Assembly: GCA_018242565.1 (NCBI GenBank)
Contig: JAFEBR010000305.1
Span: forward strand, 1 to 33,836
Origin: Planctomycetota bacterium
GTDB lineage: Bacteria > Planctomycetota > Planctomycetia > Planctomycetales > Planctomycetaceae
Reading direction: 5' to 3'
Length of the DNA: 33,836 bases
Shown: positions 1 to 26,714 of the stretch, piece by piece
How the letters are laid out: every line of letters begins with the position of its first letter
Position numbering within the stretch: the stretch's first letter is position 1
Made by a program: the position numbers and the translations under genes
Notes under the pieces: model-generated
The model's database searches: none
Told to the model about the DNA's origin: nothing
Seen by the model: the letters and a program-made list of their open reading frames with translations, nothing else

Positions 1-272
1 ATCTGCGAACCACCGATGACAGCCGTCAGCATCTGCACGGCTTCGATGTCGGCGACCTGACTGCGGACCGTTTGCGTTCCCGCACGCCAGAGTGTCAAGG
101 GGGTCGAGGGAGTTGCAGCAGGCGCGTTTTTCGCCGACGGCGGGGAAGGCTTGCCCGGCCGGGCCCCCTGGGCCGCGGCCCAGCGGGGCACCATCGCCAA
201 AGTCGCCGCCACCAGCCAGGCCAGTGCCGCGCGCTTTTCGACGGTTGTCTGCAATCGTAGAGGTCGATTCAT
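1..272 (-). CDS. exported protein of unknown function, N-terminal part (runs off the window)
   Basis: Reading leftward from an ATG at 272, the frame is open to the window edge (90 codons seen). The product starts with a basic stretch (MNRPLRLQ) followed by a hydrophobic, Ala-rich segment ending in A-A-A-Q, which looks like a Sec signal peptide cleaved near residue 35. A Pro/Ala/Lys/Ser-rich linker follows and then the start of a folded part. The start codon overlaps the stop codon of the upstream selenoprotein candidate (ATGA at 269-272), so translation is probably coupled and the two products may work in the same extracytoplasmic process. I do not recognise a family from this fragment. Confidence 0.7.
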   Translation of the reverse strand, partial: MNRPLRLQTTVEKRAALAWLVAATLAMVPRWAAAQGARPGKPSPPSAKNAPAATPSTPLTLWRAGTQTVRSQVADIEAVQMLTAVIGGSQ

Positions 273-1693
273 GAACCAGACTCCTGTTTGGGTGCAGGGG
301 GATTGTTCGCCGGGGGCGCCGGCGGAGATTGAAAGACGTTGTCGCGTTCCAGCGGAATCTGGAATCCATCCGCAACACGGGTCATGAAGTGACAACGGCA
401 CGACCACCACACGACATCGAGGGCCCGTTCGTGACCGAAGACATGCACCAGTTTCTGAACGTCGGCTTGACCGACTTCCCACGGTGTCAGTGCCTGTTTG
501 CGGGCAAATAAGAAGGCAGCCCGCTCGGCAGCCGGGAAGTCCGACCAGTCATCACCAGCCAGTTTTTCGCAGCGTTCCGCAATTTTCTGGGTATCGAGGC
601 CCGCGACCGCGAGCAGCATTTCGGTATGACCCATTCAGTAGAAACATTGCAGGCTGCGAGTAATCACCCAGAAGAGAGTTTCTTCAAACACCCGATCCTG
701 GTTGGCTTCCCGCCCGAACGTGCGCAGGCATTTGATCCAGGCCGAGCCTAACTGCGGCTGATGCCCCAGGACGACCAGACTCCACTTGATGCGGACCGGG
801 CGATCGGGGGGATAGACCTGCGGGTCGAGTCCCTGCCGAGCCACTTCCCAATCGGGGACACTGACTCGCGATGTTCGCGATCGCTGCGCTTCCATGCGAT
901 CCTGCAACTGGCCGAAGCTTAACGACAACCAGTCGGTATCGGCGATTTTCGCCGGGGCCGCCTCGTCGGCTGCTGCCGGTCGTTCGGGCCTGACGGCCGG
1001 TTCGGGCTTCTGACCGGCGGGCGGCGCCGCGAACTGCACCGGCAAGGGAGGCAACGGGCCAACAGGTTCAATCTCGGTTCCCAAGGCGAGCAACAGGCGG
1101 TCCTGGAAGTTGGCATAGGCCAGTTGGAGAACCATGGCCACGACGGCCGGTTCTCCAAATTCTTCGATCAGGTATTGCACCTCGGCATCAGTCACTGACG
1201 AGGCCTGCTCGGTCATCTTGCGGGCAAAGGTCAGCACCGCGCGCTCGCGGGGTGGCAGATCCCGGGCCCCCGCCTCGAGTTGCTCGACATCGCGTTTCGC
1301 CCCACCGGCCCGCAGCAGGTCCGCCTCGGCGTAGCGTCTGGCATAATCACAGCAATTCGAACGGGCCGCCACCCAGCGCAGTTTGGCGCGCAACCGAGGG
1401 TCAAACGCTTCACTCGTGCGGTAGAGTCGGTCGAGTTCGAGCATGGCGGCCGTGGTTCGGGGCAGCGATGCCACCAGGGCCCGGGCCCAACCGGGCAATG
1501 GACCGTGAACCGAATCCGTCGTTTCGGGCAACCGCGACCAGGCCGCATCGTCAGCGAGCAGAGGAACACGAGACCTGGCCGAGTTGGGCGCGGGAGACGG
1601 TGTATCCGGCTCGGCCGACTGCAATGGCGAGAAACTCGCGACGGCCAGGAAGAATGCCAGACCAAAGGCACCATTCCCGGGAATGCGCAGCAT
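269..1693 (-). CDS. candidate selenoprotein: exported protein with two AhpD-like (carboxymuconolactone decarboxylase fold) domains, CxxU motif, in-frame UGA
   Basis: Read through the TGA at 635-637, this frame gives 474 residues, almost the length of its 476-residue neighbour at 1958-3388. An N-terminal signal peptide (M-L-R-I-P-G then a hydrophobic run to Q-S-A-E) supports the ATG at 1693, with GGAG seven bases upstream; an in-frame ATG at 1732 is the alternative. Domain 1 (about residues 75-210) has a degenerate active site, C-D-Y-A. Domain 2 (about 320-460) reads R-S-L-Q-C-F-Y-[TGA]-M-G-H, aligning residue for residue with R-T-N-N-C-Q-Y-C-L-G-H of the paralogue, so the TGA (codon 353) replaces the second cysteine. 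AhpD-like proteins reduce peroxide-linked thiol partners through CxxC, and CxxU forms are known among bacterial selenoproteins. A conventional caller would report two genes (635-1732 and 269-634). The downstream half has no ribosome-binding site of its own. The alternative is a recent nonsense mutation of TGC/TGT, since one base separates TGA from Cys. Confidence 0.75.
591..637 (-). promoter_or_regulatory. candidate bacterial SECIS element following the in-frame UGA
   Basis: Starting from the UGA at 637-635 on the minus strand, a 6-bp hairpin forms 26 nt further on. GCUCGC (614-609) pairs with GCGGGC (604-599), one pair being G-U, around the four-base loop GGUC (608-605). Below it, two more pairs and an internal loop can extend the helix toward 622/591. 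Bacterial SECIS elements are short hairpins inside the coding region just after the UGA, with a G-U-containing loop bound by SelB. As I recall, the E. coli fdhF element also has a GGUC loop. The fit is by eye; no folding energy was computed. Confidence 0.55.
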
Positions 1694-1957
1694 GAGAAAT
1701 CTCCACTCAAAGGGAATCCTGAAAATGGTCACAGTGAGTTGTCCCTGCGATGTGATTGAACACGATCTGCTCCGGGTTGTCGAAAACCGGTCGGCAAGCG
1801 CGTCGTCTGTCGACTACTATTGTGGGTGGCACATCACAGGCCGTTCGCTCGGCCTGAGGAACACGGAACATCGTCTTCGCTCAGCAAGGTTGCTCTCCGG
1901 TCGGGCGTCCGCGAAACCTCGGCCCGTGGGGCCGAGGTGCGCGAACAAAGTGGCGAG

Positions 1958-3388
1958 TTATTGTTCCAGCGGCAAACCGGCGGCTTCGGTGATGCGATCG
2001 AACGCCGCACGACCAGTCACCAACGTGATCAGTTGCACGACCGAACGTGGTCCCGTTTTCTGCAGAGCGTCGCTAACATCGTCATCGGTGAGTACGACGG
2101 GAGTCGCTGCCAGCTTTTTCGCCAGCGTAAAGAGTGACTTTTCGGCAGGCGTGAAACCGTGCCAATCACCATCGAGGGCAAATATCTGGTCGTCGGTTTG
2201 ACCGAGATCCTTGAGTTTCTGATACGCGCCACCCGTCGCGTACCAGGCGCGGTCCTGGCGGGCAATGATCCAGCTCACCTGGGCTTTCAGCACGGGGGTC
2301 AAATCGGTCAACTCGTCCGCCGTCTTCAACGTCTGCGCCAACCGGCGGGCTTCGTTGGGAAACACCGCCAGCAGCCTCAGCACATGGGGTATCGCGCCTG
2401 CGGGCGCCGCTTCGGCCAACGCGGCCCGCGCTTCCCCCTCGCTCGCCAGCGGCAATCGAGACGAACGCTTTCGGGCAGCTTCCAAGGCGAGTTCCACGCT
2501 GTCACGCGACTCAAGTGCCGGACGCGAACAGACGGCCAGGCGACTGGGTTGGCCCTGGCCATCGGCCTGCAGCGGCGCCACGGTCGTCAGCGCCTTTTCG
2601 AATTTGGCTGGCGTGGCCGTGACGAACGACTCGGGGTGCGGGCGCTCGTTCGCGGTGCCTGCGGTGTCGCGCCGACGGAAATTGTTACCGGAACTTTGCG
2701 GGACCCCAACCCCTTCTTTCCAGCGATTGATCGAATTATTCCACGCCACCGAAAGGGTCATCTCGAGGATCTGAGGTTCCGAATAGAATTTACGCAGTGC
2801 GGCGATGTCACTGTCACCCATCTTGTGTGGTTCATAGGTGATCTTCCGGGCGTACGCGAATGCCGCCTGCTGGGCCGGCGTGTATTGCAACCAGTCTGAA
2901 TCGAGAGCCGCAATCTGCTCTTCAGTCAGTCCCGCGGCAGCCAGTTTCCATTCCTGGTGTCCCAGGCAGTATTGGCAGTTATTGGTTCGCGAGACGATCC
3001 AGAACAGCATCGTCTTGAACGGATAATCGAGCGTCATGGCCGGGTCGGAATTGCGGGTGAAATCTCCCGCGGGACGGCTGCCGCTGGCGGCGCCTCGGGC
3101 TCCCCCTCCACCAAATCCGCCGGCACTCCCGGCGGGCAAGTAATGATATCGCAGCCGGCCTTCATACCCCGAACCGCGTTCGCCAAGCTTGTCTTTTTCT
3201 TCGTCCGTGAGCTCGGGCAATGGAATCCGCGGCGGGCGCTGCTTCATGTCTTCGAGCAACTCCTTCATTTCCGGACGTGTCAGCGGGACCGGACGGGGCG
3301 TTGTCTTCGATGAAACGGGTTCGCCAGCGGAGGCGGTGCAGCCCGCCGCGGCGATCGCGGTGGCAATTAAACGAGTGAATTTTCGCAT
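1958..3388 (-). CDS. exported two-domain AhpD-like (carboxymuconolactone decarboxylase family) protein, CxxC form
   Basis: 476 residues. The N-terminus (M-R-K-F-T-R-L then a hydrophobic stretch with A-A-A-G-C) is a signal peptide, possibly a lipobox with Cys17. A Gly-rich linker (about 89-100) leads to AhpD-like domain 1 (about 120-235) with an intact redox motif C138-Q-Y-C141-L-G-H; its helices continue through the family pattern of A-A-F-A-Y-A-R-K. Domain 2 (about 350-475) keeps the fold, but its motif has become A-W-Y-A, so it should be redox-inactive. Proteins of this family use the cysteine pair to handle peroxides or reduce a partner. The gene lies 225 bp upstream of the selenoprotein candidate on the same strand and is its clear paralogue. 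The exact substrate is unknown. Confidence 0.85.
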   Translation of the reverse strand: MRKFTRLIATAIAAAGCTASAGEPVSSKTTPRPVPLTRPEMKELLEDMKQRPPRIPLPELTDEEKDKLGERGSGYEGRLRYHYLPAGSAGGFGGGGARGAASGSRPAGDFTRNSDPAMTLDYPFKTMLFWIVSRTNNCQYCLGHQEWKLAAAGLTEEQIAALDSDWLQYTPAQQAAFAYARKITYEPHKMGDSDIAALRKFYSEPQILEMTLSVAWNNSINRWKEGVGVPQSSGNNFRRRDTAGTANERPHPESFVTATPAKFEKALTTVAPLQADGQGQPSRLAVCSRPALESRDSVELALEAARKRSSRLPLASEGEARAALAEAAPAGAIPHVLRLLAVFPNEARRLAQTLKTADELTDLTPVLKAQVSWIIARQDRAWYATGGAYQKLKDLGQTDDQIFALDGDWHGFTPAEKSLFTLAKKLAATPVVLTDDDVSDALQKTGPRSVVQLITLVTGRAAFDRITEAAGLPLEQ

Positions 3389-11831: not shown

Positions 11832-12238
<407 letters not shown>

Positions 12239-12342
12239 CGGGACGCGGCCGAAGCCGATGCGAGTCATGTGCCCCCCTGCTGACTTAAGTTTAGAAAATA
12301 CATTGCTTTGTGGCGCGGTAACCGAGCCCACACAGCAACTCG

Positions 12343-12424
12343 GGGGGAATTCCAGAGTGGTCAAATGGACCAGACTGTAAATCTGGCGGCTCAGCCTTCG
12401 CAGGTTCGAATCCTGCTTCCCCCA
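12343..12424 (+). tRNA. tRNA-Tyr (anticodon GUA)
   Basis: Acceptor GGGGGAA pairs with TTCCCCC, discriminator A. The anticodon stem CCAGA/TCTGG encloses CTGTAAA with anticodon GTA. An extended variable arm (class II) makes it 82 bases. CCA is not encoded. Confidence 0.96.
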
Positions 12425-12480
12425 TTTTCAAATTGAAATCGGTTTGTTAATTTAAGGAGTCGAGAGTTTCGTAGCGTCAC

Positions 12481-12551
12481 GCGGGCGTAGCTCAATGGTA
12501 GAGTTCCAGCCTTCCAAGCTGGCCACGTGGGTTCGATTCCCATCGCCCGCT
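12481..12551 (+). tRNA. tRNA-Gly (anticodon UCC)
   Basis: Acceptor GCGGGCG pairs with CGCCCGC, discriminator T. The anticodon stem CCAGC/GCTGG encloses CTTCCAA with anticodon TCC. CCA is not encoded. Confidence 0.96.
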
Positions 12552-12744
12552 CTGTGTGTTGACAACCCTGCCGATACTGAACGCGACGAGAGTCACCTCT
12601 CGCCTCGGGGAACTTTTTTAAAAAAAATATCGACAGAGTGAGTCGCACGCTGGCAAATTGGGCTTCTGCAGACTATCCTGCTGGGCTTCCTCTGGCTGTG
12701 CGCAGCGCTCAGTCGGTTGAGTGCGGCGTGTGGTAACAACTGCT

Positions 12745-12817
12745 GCTGCTGTAGCTCAGCTGGTAGAGCACGTCCTTGGTAAGGACGAGGTCAAGGGTCC
12801 GAGTCCCTTCAGCAGCT
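12745..12817 (+). tRNA. tRNA-Thr (anticodon GGU)
   Basis: Acceptor GCTGCTG pairs with CAGCAGC, discriminator T. The anticodon stem CGTCC/GGACG encloses TTGGTAA with anticodon GGT. CCA is not encoded. It lies 128 bases before tuf, in the position of thrT before tufB in E. coli. Confidence 0.96.
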
Positions 12818-12945
12818 TTTGGTTTTGTCGTTTACTTTAATTTACGTTGCATTCCGCAACGCGCGTGAATCGGTCCGGTGGAAGACCGACTCGTGTCGTC
12901 CGCGAACGCAAGATTTCACTCGATTTTTGATTTGAGGGAAGCACG

Positions 12946-14145
<1,200 letters not shown>

Positions 14146-14190
14146 TCCACAGCGGACGACACGGTCGTAAGGATAAATTGTCGATCACCT

Positions 14191-14230
14191 CTCCCGGACC
14201 GTCAACTGATGGTCCGGGAGGCTGGTTTTT
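14191..14230 (+). terminator. rho-independent terminator after tuf
   Basis: A perfect 10-bp stem CTCCCGGACC/GGTCCGGGAG (14191-14220) with a 10-base loop is followed by GCTGGTTTTT. It separates tuf from rpmG and probably gives partial termination, because rpmG starts only 17 bases later. Confidence 0.8.
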
Positions 14231-14246
14231 AGATAGAGGTCGTGAT

Positions 14247-14402
14247 ATGGTACGCGAATACGTCTGGCTGGAATGCAGCGAGTCGGGGGACCGGAACTAC
14301 CGCACTCCGAAAGAAACTCGGGGCACTGAGCGACTGGAAATCAAGAAATACTGCAAAAAGCTGCGTCGGCACACCATTCACAAAGAGTCGCGCAAGAAAT
14401 AG
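14247..14402 (+). CDS. rpmG: 50S ribosomal protein L33
   Basis: 51 residues from the ATG at 14247, with GAGGT six bases upstream; longer in-frame starts run into the terminator and are rejected. The sequence has the L33 pattern (R-N-Y-R-T, then R-L-E-I-K-K-Y-C and R-R-H-T-I-H-K-E). The zinc-ribbon CxxC pairs are reduced to one Cys each (C-S-E-S near residue 9; Y-C-K-K-L near 36), so this is a zinc-independent or half-converted form. It lies between tuf and tRNA-Trp, as in several other bacterial lineages. Confidence 0.95.
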   Translation: MVREYVWLECSESGDRNYRTPKETRGTERLEIKKYCKKLRRHTIHKESRKK

Positions 14403-14524
14403 CCGCTGCGAGCCTGGCCGTGAGATCTGGGTGAGCCTGAAGCTCGCCGGTGGATGATCAACACGTGACCCAACGTGGTCGGAAATCTGCTAATTTTCAG
14501 CCAAGTTTGCCACGCTTGCTCTCT

Positions 14525-14596
14525 ACGGGCGTAGCTCAATGGCAGAGCATCGGATTCCAAATCCGACGGTTGGGGGTTCGAGTCCCTCCGCCCGTG
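14525..14596 (+). tRNA. tRNA-Trp (anticodon CCA)
   Basis: Acceptor ACGGGCG pairs with CGCCCGT, discriminator G. The anticodon stem TCGGA/TCCGA encloses TTCCAAA with anticodon CCA. The 3' CCA is not encoded. It sits between rpmG and secE. Confidence 0.96.
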
Positions 14597-14653
14597 TTTT
14601 GAAACAAAGATTACGGACAATCGGGCGTCGTCGAACATCGGAAAATATACGAG

Positions 14654-18194: not shown

Positions 18195-18534
18195 TCGGAA
18201 TTTTCCGATGGTTGAGGGACCAGGGCGGTTTCGCCCTGGTCGCTACGACGTTTGGCTCTGCCCCGCAGTTTGAGAGTTGCCCGCGGTCTAGAATGACGGA
18301 TCGGATGAGCTCATCTGGCGTGTGTTTAGTCGCGCAAGAGACTTTGGCGCTCGGCGTGCGCACACGCCTGCGCTCATTTCTGCACCGCGCTGAGCCGACG
18401 CCGGCAGTGTGCCACGTCACTGAATGCATGGATTGCAGTGCGGCCACCCTCCGACCCGCAGCCCCGTAGTTCTGCGGCTGCCCCCCGGATCGAGTGCAGT
18501 TCCTGTCACGCTTCTGTACAATAGAGAGCACATT
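18195..18534. other. rplL-rpoB intercistronic region
   Basis: 340 bases with no gene. A strong hairpin lies at 18218-18241. Near the rpoB start, TACAAT (18517-18522) resembles a -10 box, but no good -35 partner is visible, so an internal promoter for rpoB is possible but unproven. Confidence 0.45.
18218..18241 (+). terminator. hairpin between rplL and rpoB, possible partial terminator/attenuator
   Basis: GACCAGGGCG pairs perfectly over 10 bp with CGCCCTGGTC around a GTTT loop, starting 23 bases after the rplL stop. No U-run follows, so full intrinsic termination is unlikely. In E. coli an attenuator at the same place lowers rpoBC expression relative to the ribosomal genes. Confidence 0.5.
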
Positions 18535-21500
18535 ATGGCGACACCTGCCGTACACAGCCTGAAATTTGAAAAGATCCGCAATTTTGGCACACTCTCAAAC
18601 GAGTTTGCCCTGTCGGACCTGACGCAGATCCAGACTGAGTCGTACGCGCGGTTTCTGCAGCTCGACGCGGATCCGAAGCATCGCAAATTGCACGGGCTGG
18701 AAGAGATCCTGCGGGAAATCTTTCCGATCAAGAGCTACGACGGCCAGCACACCCTCGATTTCGTCAAATACGAACTGGGCAAACCGCGCTACACCCCGGT
18801 CGAATGCCGTCAGTTGCGTCTGACCTACGGCCGCCCCTTCCGCATCTGGCTGCGTCTGTTGAAAGAACAGCCGATTGAAGAGGAAGTGTACCTGGGTGAC
18901 ATGCCCATCATGCTGGGCGGTGGCGAATTCATCATCAATGGTGCCGAGCGCGTCGTCGTCAGCCAGTTGCACCGCTCGCCCGGCGTCGACTTTGTGTCGA
19001 GCTCCGAACCTGGCGAACGTAAGACCTACTCGTGCCGCATCATTCCCGAACGGGGCAGCTGGATCGAACTGAACATCGGCAAGCGCGAAACGCTTGGCGT
19101 CCGCATCGATCAAAGCGGCAAATTCTCGGCGATCACGCTGCTCCGCGCCATGAGCCAGGAGAACTCGACCGACGCCGCGATCATCCGCTGCTTCCACCCG
19201 ACGAAGGTACTGAAGACCAATGAAGCCGACCTCGTCAAAAAACTGACGGGCAAGTATGCCGCCGACGATGTGATCTACCCCGTCAAGAGCGAACGCTCGG
19301 GTGAAATCATCGTCGAAGCGGGTCACATGATCTCCGCCGAGCAGGCCCAGGAGATCGTCGATTCGCCGATCAAGAACATCGAGATCATCGACGCGATCAC
19401 CGATCCGCTGATCCTGAACAGCATTCAGGAAGATACAACCACCAGCCACCAGGAAGCGCTGCTGAAGATTTACCAGCGGTTGCGTCCGGGCAACCCGCCG
19501 CAGTTGGAAAAGGCGATCGAACTTTTCCACGAGAAATTCTTCGACGTCAACCGTTACCGGCTGGGTCGCGTCGGTCGTTTCCGCATCAATCGCAAGTTCA
19601 ACCAGGACGTGCCTGACGATGTGATGACCCTGCGGTCCGAAGACTTCATCAACGCGATCCGCTACATCCTCAAGTTGCGTTCGGGCGATCCCAGCGTGAA
19701 CGTCGACGACATCGATAACCTCGGTAATCGTCGTTTGCGCACGATCGACGAACTGGCATCCGACGAAATCCGCAAGGGCTTCCTGAAACTGCGCCGCACG
19801 GTGCAGGAACGCATGAGCCTGAAGGACGTCCAGGAAATGTCGCCGCGCACCCTGGTGAATCCCAAGAGCGTGTCGGCGGCGATCGAATACTTCTTCGGAC
19901 GGGGTGAACTGTCGCAGGTGGTCGACCAGACCAACCCGCTTTCGACCCTGACCCATGAGCGTCGGTTGAGTGCCCTCGGGCCTGGTGGTTTGAACCGGAA
20001 ACGCGCCGGCTTCGAAGTCCGCGACGTGCACATTTCGCACTACGGTCGAATCTGCCCGATTGAAACGCCTGAAGGTACGAACATCGGCCTGATTTCCAGC
20101 TTGAGCATGTTCGCCAAGGTGGATGACTACGGGTTCCTGATTACCCCGTACCAGGTGATCAAGAACGGCAAGGTCACCGAAGAATTCCGCTGGCTGCGTG
20201 CTGACGAAGAAACCAATGCGTTCCTGGCACCCGCCGATACACCCGTCGAAGCGGGCAAGCTGCGCGACGATCGCGTGCTCGTTCGCCACCGCGGCGACTT
20301 CGTGCATGTCGATGCGAAGCAGGTTGAATTCATGGACGTGGCTCCCTGCCAGATGGTGGGGGTCTCGGCCGGTCTGATTCCGTTCCTCGAACACGACGAC
20401 GCCAACCGGGCGTTGATGGGTTCGAACATGCAACGGCAAGCCGTGCCGCTGTTGATCACCGAACCCCCGATCGTGGGGACCGGCCTCGAAAAGGCGGTCG
20501 CCGAGAACTCGGGCATGTTGATTCGTGCCGAGCGCGCCGGAACCGTGAATTACGTCGATGGCAACCGGATCGAAGTCGACGGCAAAATCTATCCGCTGCA
20601 GAAGTTCACTGGATTGAACGAACGGACCTGTATGAATCAGCGTCCGATCGTGAAACTGGGACAGCGCGTCAAACGCGGCCAGGTGATGTGCGACAGCGCC
20701 GCCACCCGCGACGCCGAACTCGCTCTGGGACGCAACGTGGTCGTGGCCTTCATGTCGTGGGAAGGTTACAACTTCGAAGACGCGATCATCCTGTCCGAAC
20801 GTCTCGTGAAAGAAGACGTCTACACCTCGATTCACATCGACGAATTCGATGTCGAAATCCGCGAAACGAAACTGGGACGCGAAGAATTCACCCGCGACAT
20901 CCCCAACGTCAGCGAAAAGGCCCTGCGACATCTGGGCGAAGACGGCATCGTGCAGATCGGCACGCGGGTTTCTCCGGGTGACATCCTTGTCGGTAAGGTC
21001 TCGCCCAAAGCGAAGGCCGAACTGACCCCCGAAGAAAAACTGTTGCATGCCATCTTCGGTCGCGCCGGCGAAGACGTGAAGAACGAATCGCTGGAAGTTC
21101 CCTCGGGTGTCGAAGGCATCGTGATCGACACCCAGAAATTCTCGCGGCGAATGAGCCTGACCGAATCGGAACGGCGGAAGTTCGAAGCCGAATTGAAGAC
21201 CAAGGAAGACGAAGGCAACAAGAACATTGCCGAGGCGTTCCGCAAGTTCCTGGGCGAGATCGAAAAGGTCCTCGACCGCAAACTGCAGGACGACGACGGA
21301 CACGTGCTGCGTGACGCGGAAGACAAAATTGTCTCGGCGTACGCCCAGAACTTCAAAGATCACTTCGACAAACTCGACATTCGCTCGCCTCAGAAACGGG
21401 CCGATTGCCAGGAAATCATCAAGACCCACTGGTCGAACGTGGAACTGGCGATCGACAATCGCGACCGCATCGTTAACACAATGAAGCGCGGCGACGAATT

Positions 21501-22248
21501 GCCCAGCGGCGTGTTGCAGATGGTCAAAGTCTACGTCGCTTCGAAGCGAGTGATTTCGGTCGGTGACAAGATGGCCGGCCGCCACGGGAACAAGGGTGTG
21601 ATTTCGAAGGTCTTGCCGGTCGAAGACATGCCGTTCCTCGAAGACGGAACGCCGGTCGACATCATCCTGAATCCGCTGGGCGTGCCCAGTCGTATGAACG
21701 TCGGCCAGATTCTGGAAACCCACCTGGGCTGGGCCGCGTCGAAACATGGTTACCAGGCGATCTGCCCCGTATTCGACGGTGCCTCGGAAGATGAGATTCA
21801 CACGGCCTTGAAAGAAGCCGGGCAGTCGCCCGACGGGAAGTCGGTGCTGTATGACGGACGAACGGGTGACCGGTTTGAACAGCGAGTGACGGTCGGTGTG
21901 ATTTACATGCTGAAACTGCACCACCTGGTCGATGACAAGGTTCACGCCCGGGCGACCGGTCCGTACTCGCTGATCACGCAACAGCCTCTGGGTGGTAAAG
22001 CCCGGTTCGGCGGTCAACGGTTCGGGGAAATGGAAGTCTGGGCATTGGAAGCTTACGGCGCCGCTTACATCCTGCAGGAACTGCTGACGGTCAAGAGCGA
22101 CGACGTGGAAGGCCGTACCAAGATTTACGAGTCGATGGTCAAGGGAGAGAACACGCTGGAAGCGGGAACGCCCGCCAGTTTCGACGTGCTCAACAACGAG
22201 ATCCGCGGGTTGGCATTGAATCTGCAACTCGAAAAGAAGCACAGTTAA
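18535..22248 (+). CDS. rpoB: DNA-directed RNA polymerase subunit beta
   Basis: 1237 residues from the ATG at 18535 ([11 protein letters not shown]), preceded by AGAGAG; an earlier in-frame Met at 18424 lies in the leader. Beta forms one jaw and part of the active site of RNA polymerase. Landmarks are the rifampicin region (about residues 452-490: [24 protein letters not shown]), the [13 protein letters not shown] motif, and [13 protein letters not shown] (about 1010). The residues matching E. coli D516, S522, H526 and S531 are wild type, so no resistance change is seen; F514-M515 are Val-Val. A long antisense open frame covers it but is a shadow. Confidence 0.99.
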
Positions 22249-22282
22249 TCCACTACGAACGACTCAAATTTTCAATGTCACA

Positions 22283-22348
22283 GGAAATTCCCGCGGTGTA
22301 CCGCGGTGGCGACAATCCAGCCGACAGTTTCTGAACCGCGGAATTTCC
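22283..22348 (+). repeat. large inverted repeat between rpoB and rpoC
   Basis: GGAAATTCCCGCGGT (22283-22297) pairs with ACCGCGGAATTTCC (22335-22348) over 14 bp with one bulged C. A third copy of the core, ACCGCGGT (22300-22307), can pair with the left arm instead to make a small hairpin, so two exclusive RNA structures are possible. No U-run follows at once. Possible roles are an RNase processing site or control of the beta/beta-prime ratio. Confidence 0.6.
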
Positions 22349-22400
22349 ACGACATTCGATTTTCTGGTTTCAATTTTTTCCCGTCCTGGGGGAGTGAAAC

Positions 22401-26714
<4,314 letters not shown>

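Follow-up and report, generated by a model that had tools for sequence, protein, structure and literature searches.

The window analysed here, a 33,836-nucleotide stretch of planctomycete DNA, carries near its first base an AhpD-like gene with an in-frame UGA, positioned between the start of a deiodinase-family gene and a cysteine-containing paralogue. The features are as follows.

1..272, minus strand: 5′ part of a deiodinase-family gene; its ATG (272-270) overlaps the stop codon of the AhpD-like gene as ATGA, and the gene is cut by the contig end at base 1
269..1693, minus strand: coding sequence of the putative AhpD-like selenoprotein, 474 aa if UGA353 is decoded as selenocysteine (Sec)
599..614, minus strand: putative SECIS hairpin GCUCGC-GGUC-GCGGGC, 6 bp with apical loop GGUC
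635..637, minus strand: in-frame UGA, putative Sec codon 353, at the second position of CxxU
1701..1704, minus strand: likely ribosome-binding site by sequence, GGAG, 7 nt 5′ of the ATG at 1693
1958..3388, minus strand: Cys paralogue, 476 aa, with C138-Q-Y-C141-L-G-H in domain 1

The minus-strand frame from 1693 to 269 has the TGA at 635-637 (codon 353) as its sole internal stop. A preliminary description of this DNA had proposed that this triplet joins two open frames, that it sits on a Cys position of a CxxC motif, and that the second half lacks a ribosome-binding site. On re-reading, the joined frame indeed encodes 474 residues, the site is exactly as described (C350-F-Y-TGA-M-G-H356 compared to C-Q-Y-C141-L-G-H in the paralogue), with the TGA standing at the second Cys position in a CxxC..H active site, and no ribosome-binding site was found ahead of the ATG past the TGA. 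The N-terminus carries a hydrophobic signal, and the protein is probably exported. Its domain 1 (residues ~45-215) has lost the second active-site Cys (N-C-C-D-Y-A), and domain 2 (~255-447) holds C350-F-Y-U353-M-G-H356. One argument of the preliminary description, the match in length between the joined frame (474) and the paralogue (476), was rejected: both proteins comprise two AhpD-fold domains, but the active sites are not collinear, being located in domain 2 here and in domain 1 of the paralogue, and with the domains out of register equal lengths are not evidence. The paralogue has Cys in the window genome, and its orthologues in seven other genomes have TGA at codon 141. The genome UBA6894 possesses UGA in both AhpD-like paralogues, ~2 kb apart (L175:3494 and 5545); the Sec paralogue of G105 (L067; G105:C552:16238-17635) has an extra TAA beside the TGA in the aligned frame, possibly produced by the alignment or the assembly. 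Elsewhere in the window, a tRNA-tuf type cluster (12164-14597) comprises four tRNA genes (Thr, Tyr, Gly, Thr), an elongation-factor-like frame to which the selB model matches (12946-14145), and tRNA-Trp. Judging by size only, the long frames at 18424-26714 may encode RNA polymerase subunits; a 1215-aa frame (18595-22242, minus strand) antisense to a 1274-aa frame (18424-22248) among them is probably a composition effect.

An AlphaFold model (44 relatives; mean pLDDT 85.8) of the AhpD-like protein consists of two all-helical AhpD domains, and the whole-chain fold match is human Sestrin2 (Z 26.3 over 290 residues, rmsd 3.2 Å, 12% identity), with single-domain AhpD-like folds reaching only Z 14-18. 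In sequence profiles, the first half is nearest to PA0269-type AhpD, and the best solved-structure match of the CxxU half is the debrominase Bmp8 (6ohi, E ~7e-6). Membership of the AhpD fold, in terms of the two-helix motif, Cys-x-x-Cys/Sec, relay Glu, Tyr/His and His, is met with the His offset by one. Specifically, E338, C350, Y352 and U353 are in register with PA0269 Glu36, Cys48, Tyr50 and Cys51, and the relay His occurs one residue early, at +3 from Sec instead of +4. The protein falls below the cut-offs of TIGR01926 (42.9 versus 81.8 bits) and PF02627 CMD (16.3 versus 23 bits). Although it has the C-F-Y-U motif in common with NF041238 (AhpD_rel_CFYUT; AhpD-related CFYU(T), hypothetical protein 1 of the Sargasso Sea, model length 357 aa), it is not a member of that family, with 20.7 bits against a cut-off of 175.

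The window genome (G000; 9.3 Mb, 96.7% complete, 1252 contigs) possesses selA, selB, selC and selD. The tRNA-Sec scores 71.1 bits with a TCA anticodon, and selA (493 bits), selB and selD cluster within 4.5 kb on contig C873. A Sec formate dehydrogenase was considered as the reason for this machinery, with no family match above cut-off. Among 170 genomes of the order, a full-length orthologue with TGA at the same codon was identified in the congener G057 (L113:4931; protein 73% identical), and Cys orthologues occur elsewhere. The active-site codon at 110 CxxX..H sites of the order is TGC in 76 cases, TGT in 25 and TGA in nine; TAA, TAG or any other codon was found at none of the 110. All nine TGA genomes of the order have selA above cut-off, compared to 14 with and 34 without selA in the remainder (Fisher 9e-5, uncorrected for shared descent). 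A single-sequence scan of genome contigs gave no match, and a profile scan of named genomes found members, with more TGA cases in Isosphaeraceae, Singulisphaera, Gemmataceae and others.

The putative SECIS hairpin begins 20 nt past UGA353 and its GGUC loop 26 nt past it, which fits the published bSECIS model of G in the first loop positions at 16-37 nt from the UGA (PMC13188914). For a sequence this GC-rich, the stability of the hairpin is unremarkable (z -0.47), and because energy alone is not significant, the evidence for it rests on the contrast between Sec and Cys genes. All six pairs and the GGUC loop occur at one fixed distance in 15/15 distinct Sec genes from both paralogous subfamilies, and the six-pair hairpin in 0/160 Cys genes; a 13-nt core is the same in the two subfamilies. 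The outermost pair varies among Sec genes (G-C, U-A or C-G), and the inner pairs show no covariation because the inner part of the hairpin is invariant. Between G000 and G057, only one of nine fourfold sites differs in codons 354-366, compared to 63% after the hairpin. The hairpin was also sought in other genes: the 9.3 Mb genome contains a single exact copy of its 14-nt core, and a scan of 392 phylum-wide genomes for a UGA with the hairpin returned nine matches, three of them AhpD-like and the rest apparently due to chance.

These data bear on readings of the UGA that do not involve Sec. A sequencing error or pseudogene could be suspected of one fragmented assembly in 1252 contigs; however, the TGA is present at the same codon in the congener and in at least 15 distinct genes over two paralogous subfamilies, and because of this recurrence at a homologous codon in many genomes it is not a sequencing error hiding TGC or TGT at 635-637. 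Substitutions past the UGA are distributed 13/8/50 by codon position over 102 codons, and protein identity is 81% past the UGA versus 73% before it; by this measure, strong purifying selection acts on the part of the protein past the UGA. Recurrence and post-UGA selection rule out error and decay, which we regard as negligible, and also a reading of UGA as another amino acid through a code change or suppressor, an idea scarcely more credible, for which there is nothing beyond the open frame and against which stand the restriction of this position to Cys or UGA, the presence of Sec machinery and SECIS, and the normal CCA anticodon of the window tRNA-Trp. Alternatively, the UGA could be a true stop that ends the protein at 352 residues, whether or not the second half is then made by reinitiation, the full-length Sec form being minor or absent. 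Bacterial Sec insertion is established to compete with termination, and domain 1 folds alone in the model. However, the 352-residue product would be without the only CxxC/U centre, no ribosome-binding site precedes the second half, and the hairpin is tied to the UGA (15/15 versus 0/160), and we consider a true stop very improbable. The earlier proposal of an AhpD-like selenoprotein is supported by the Sec machinery, by the recurrent TGA, and by relatives with Cys or TGA at this codon and an intact downstream frame under selection; none of the three conditions that it named as refuting holds. It did not include the SECIS, the deiodinase-like selenoprotein next door or the link between the two genes.

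The adjoining deiodinase-like gene provides a second line of comparison. The window end at base 1 overlaps the reverse strand of contig C939 by exactly 53 nt, and C939 carries the frame on (C939:4524-5564, minus strand), with a translation that contains an in-frame UGA of its own (FGSFTUGPF). The G057 orthologue, to which the G000 copy is 75% identical, meets the membership cut-off of NF038285 (468.5 bits versus 250) and bears EF-hands; a second, Cys deiodinase-like gene is located upstream in G057, slightly farther away. The partner domain matches PF00837 deiodinase with 100 bits and AhpC-TSA (PF00578) with 34.3 bits. Past its UGA lies a hairpin unlike that of the AhpD-like genes; all seven of its pairs are present in 15/15 Sec genes and 0/52 Cys genes, and the Watson-Crick pair varies at several positions. 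Adjacent AhpD-like/deiodinase-like pairs, counted on the same strand within 4 kb with the nearest partner and uncorrected for shared descent, are Sec/Sec in seven cases, Cys/Cys in 91 and mixed in none. In ~20 relatives (L021, L037, L114, L128, L171 and others, including the cultured Zavarzinella formosa) the two domains are fused in one open frame; the L171 frame contains both UGA codons, is otherwise open, and would encode a fusion with two Sec residues. No deiodinase-like gene was found beside the Sec AhpD-like gene in G103, G058 and G114, and in G069, G104 and G112 a Sec deiodinase-like gene is present with no Sec AhpD-like gene detected. The window genome also has a second AhpD-like/deiodinase-like pair, both Cys (L237; G000:C684:23919-26592).

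The family trees differ in what they suggest for the history of Sec. In the tree of the window protein, an 11-row clade (support 100/99) groups all seven Sec rows with four Cys rows that cluster together, and a single loss of Sec is the simplest reading of this topology. In the paralogue family, Sec was probably gained, because the main Sec clade is nested inside Cys relatives; one distant Sec row is separate. The sequence immediately 5′ of the hairpin in Sec paralogues matches their own Cys relatives, and any transferred tract would therefore be short. A convergent origin of the hairpin in the two subfamilies is plausible, since the codons of LxxAG already provide part of the stem, by inference.

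Taken as a whole, we think it likely that the gene encodes a selenoprotein with SelB/SECIS-directed Sec, forming an extracytoplasmic selenol/thiol redox couple with the deiodinase-like partner. The evidence available from the genomes comprises the UGA, SECIS, Sec machinery, post-UGA selection, conserved pairing, coupled Sec/Cys state and fusions; that Sec is in fact inserted, that the proteins are exported, that electrons flow between them and in which direction, and what the substrate is, are inferences made in the absence of protein or RNA data. SelB bound to the hairpin 20 nt past UGA353 would deliver Sec-tRNA, and the ribosome would yield a 474-residue exported protein whose second AhpD domain holds a single C-F-Y-U..H selenol/thiol centre. 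The ATGA-overlapping gene would supply an exported, EF-hand-bearing deiodinase-like selenoprotein, whose thioredoxin-fold Sec may perform reductive chemistry on a substrate. The AhpD-like CxxU centre may then re-reduce this Sec via a selenenyl-sulfide, as AhpD does for AhpC, although the direction of electron flow within the pair is assigned by analogy only, and the substrate class, peroxide or organohalogen, remains open.

Two more specific functions may be weighed against this background. In a peroxide defence pair, the deiodinase-like protein would act as a peroxidase of the peroxiredoxin type and be reduced by the AhpD-like protein. The AhpC-TSA match of the partner domain favours this, as do the tandem fold of Sestrin and the precedent of AhpD, which is the reductant of AhpC and has weak peroxidase activity itself (PMC3141380); however, the best family of the partner is deiodinase rather than AhpC, no upstream reductant gene is evident in the operon, and we consider this function possible but somewhat short of even. 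In dehalogenation, the deiodinase-like Sec and a Bmp8-like CxxU would together strip halogen from an extracytoplasmic organohalogen. The neighbouring PF00837 deiodinase and the top rank of Bmp8 among solved-structure sequence matches of the CxxU half are compatible with this role; however, Bmp8 is one among several AhpD-fold matches, and structural alignment ranks AhpD-like proteins equally high. In addition, the substrate-bound Bmp8 mutant is C82A, presumably a change at the first CxxC cysteine, whereas Sec here occupies the second position. Without evidence for a substrate, dehalogenation seems unlikely. Equally doubtful is the broader proposal of a widespread planctomycete relay, in split and fused forms, in which deiodinase-like and sestrin/Bmp8-like AhpD Sec centres carry out extracytoplasmic dehalogenation and Sec is gained and lost jointly.

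The redox couple that we favour can be placed among known systems. Bmp8 has an AhpD fold with CxxC, but is single-domain and Cys only, and the likeness is limited to sequence and fold. Animal sestrins have the tandem AhpD fold over their full length, but identity is low (see above), and the present protein is bacterial, probably exported, and has its active centre in domain 2 with a putative Sec; leucine sensing and GATOR2 binding, to our knowledge, are not to be expected of it in bacteria. As the preliminary description stated, AhpD-like CxxU selenoproteins are known in other bacteria. Those of the Sargasso Sea and of the Global Ocean Sampling data (COG2128/TIGR01926 and the CMD-like PF02627; PMC1088965, PMC2398784) have the same AhpD fold with Sec at the second CxxU position, whereas here there are two AhpD domains per probably exported chain, a deiodinase-like partner, and scores below the TIGR01926 and PF02627 cut-offs. 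Selenoprotein genes co-located with an AhpD-like one (Prx-like/AhpD-like neighbours) have likewise been described (PMC2398784, PMC13188914), but neither a deiodinase-like/AhpD-like pair nor a fusion of the two appears in those lists. The partner belongs to the known NF038285/PF00837 deiodinase-like selenoproteins, for which adjacency to, or fusion with, an AhpD-like protein and a common Sec/Cys state were not found described. A published study of planctomycete selenoproteins deals with fdhA and fmdB, with AhpD unnamed in its main text, and the deep-Sep paper mentions neither AhpD nor planctomycetes. The further suggestion that the tandem-domain, exported form is undescribed holds as far as the open-access literature goes, as it does for the near-invariant SECIS in two paralogues and the coupling or fusion with a deiodinase-like selenoprotein; this scope is no proof of absence.

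In the papers considered, AhpD-like CxxU selenoproteins have so far merely been catalogued, with no function tested. Here, the partner is conserved, fused in ~20 relatives, and matched in Sec/Cys state in every adjacent pair, and the function of the AhpD-like Sec form therefore becomes testable. The same UGA and hairpin core in two subfamilies, one nested in Cys relatives, provide a natural test of the route by which a Sec site and the accompanying SECIS arise. Finally, the link between deiodinase-like and sestrin-like proteins in bacteria may be relevant to how the two protein families of animals originated.
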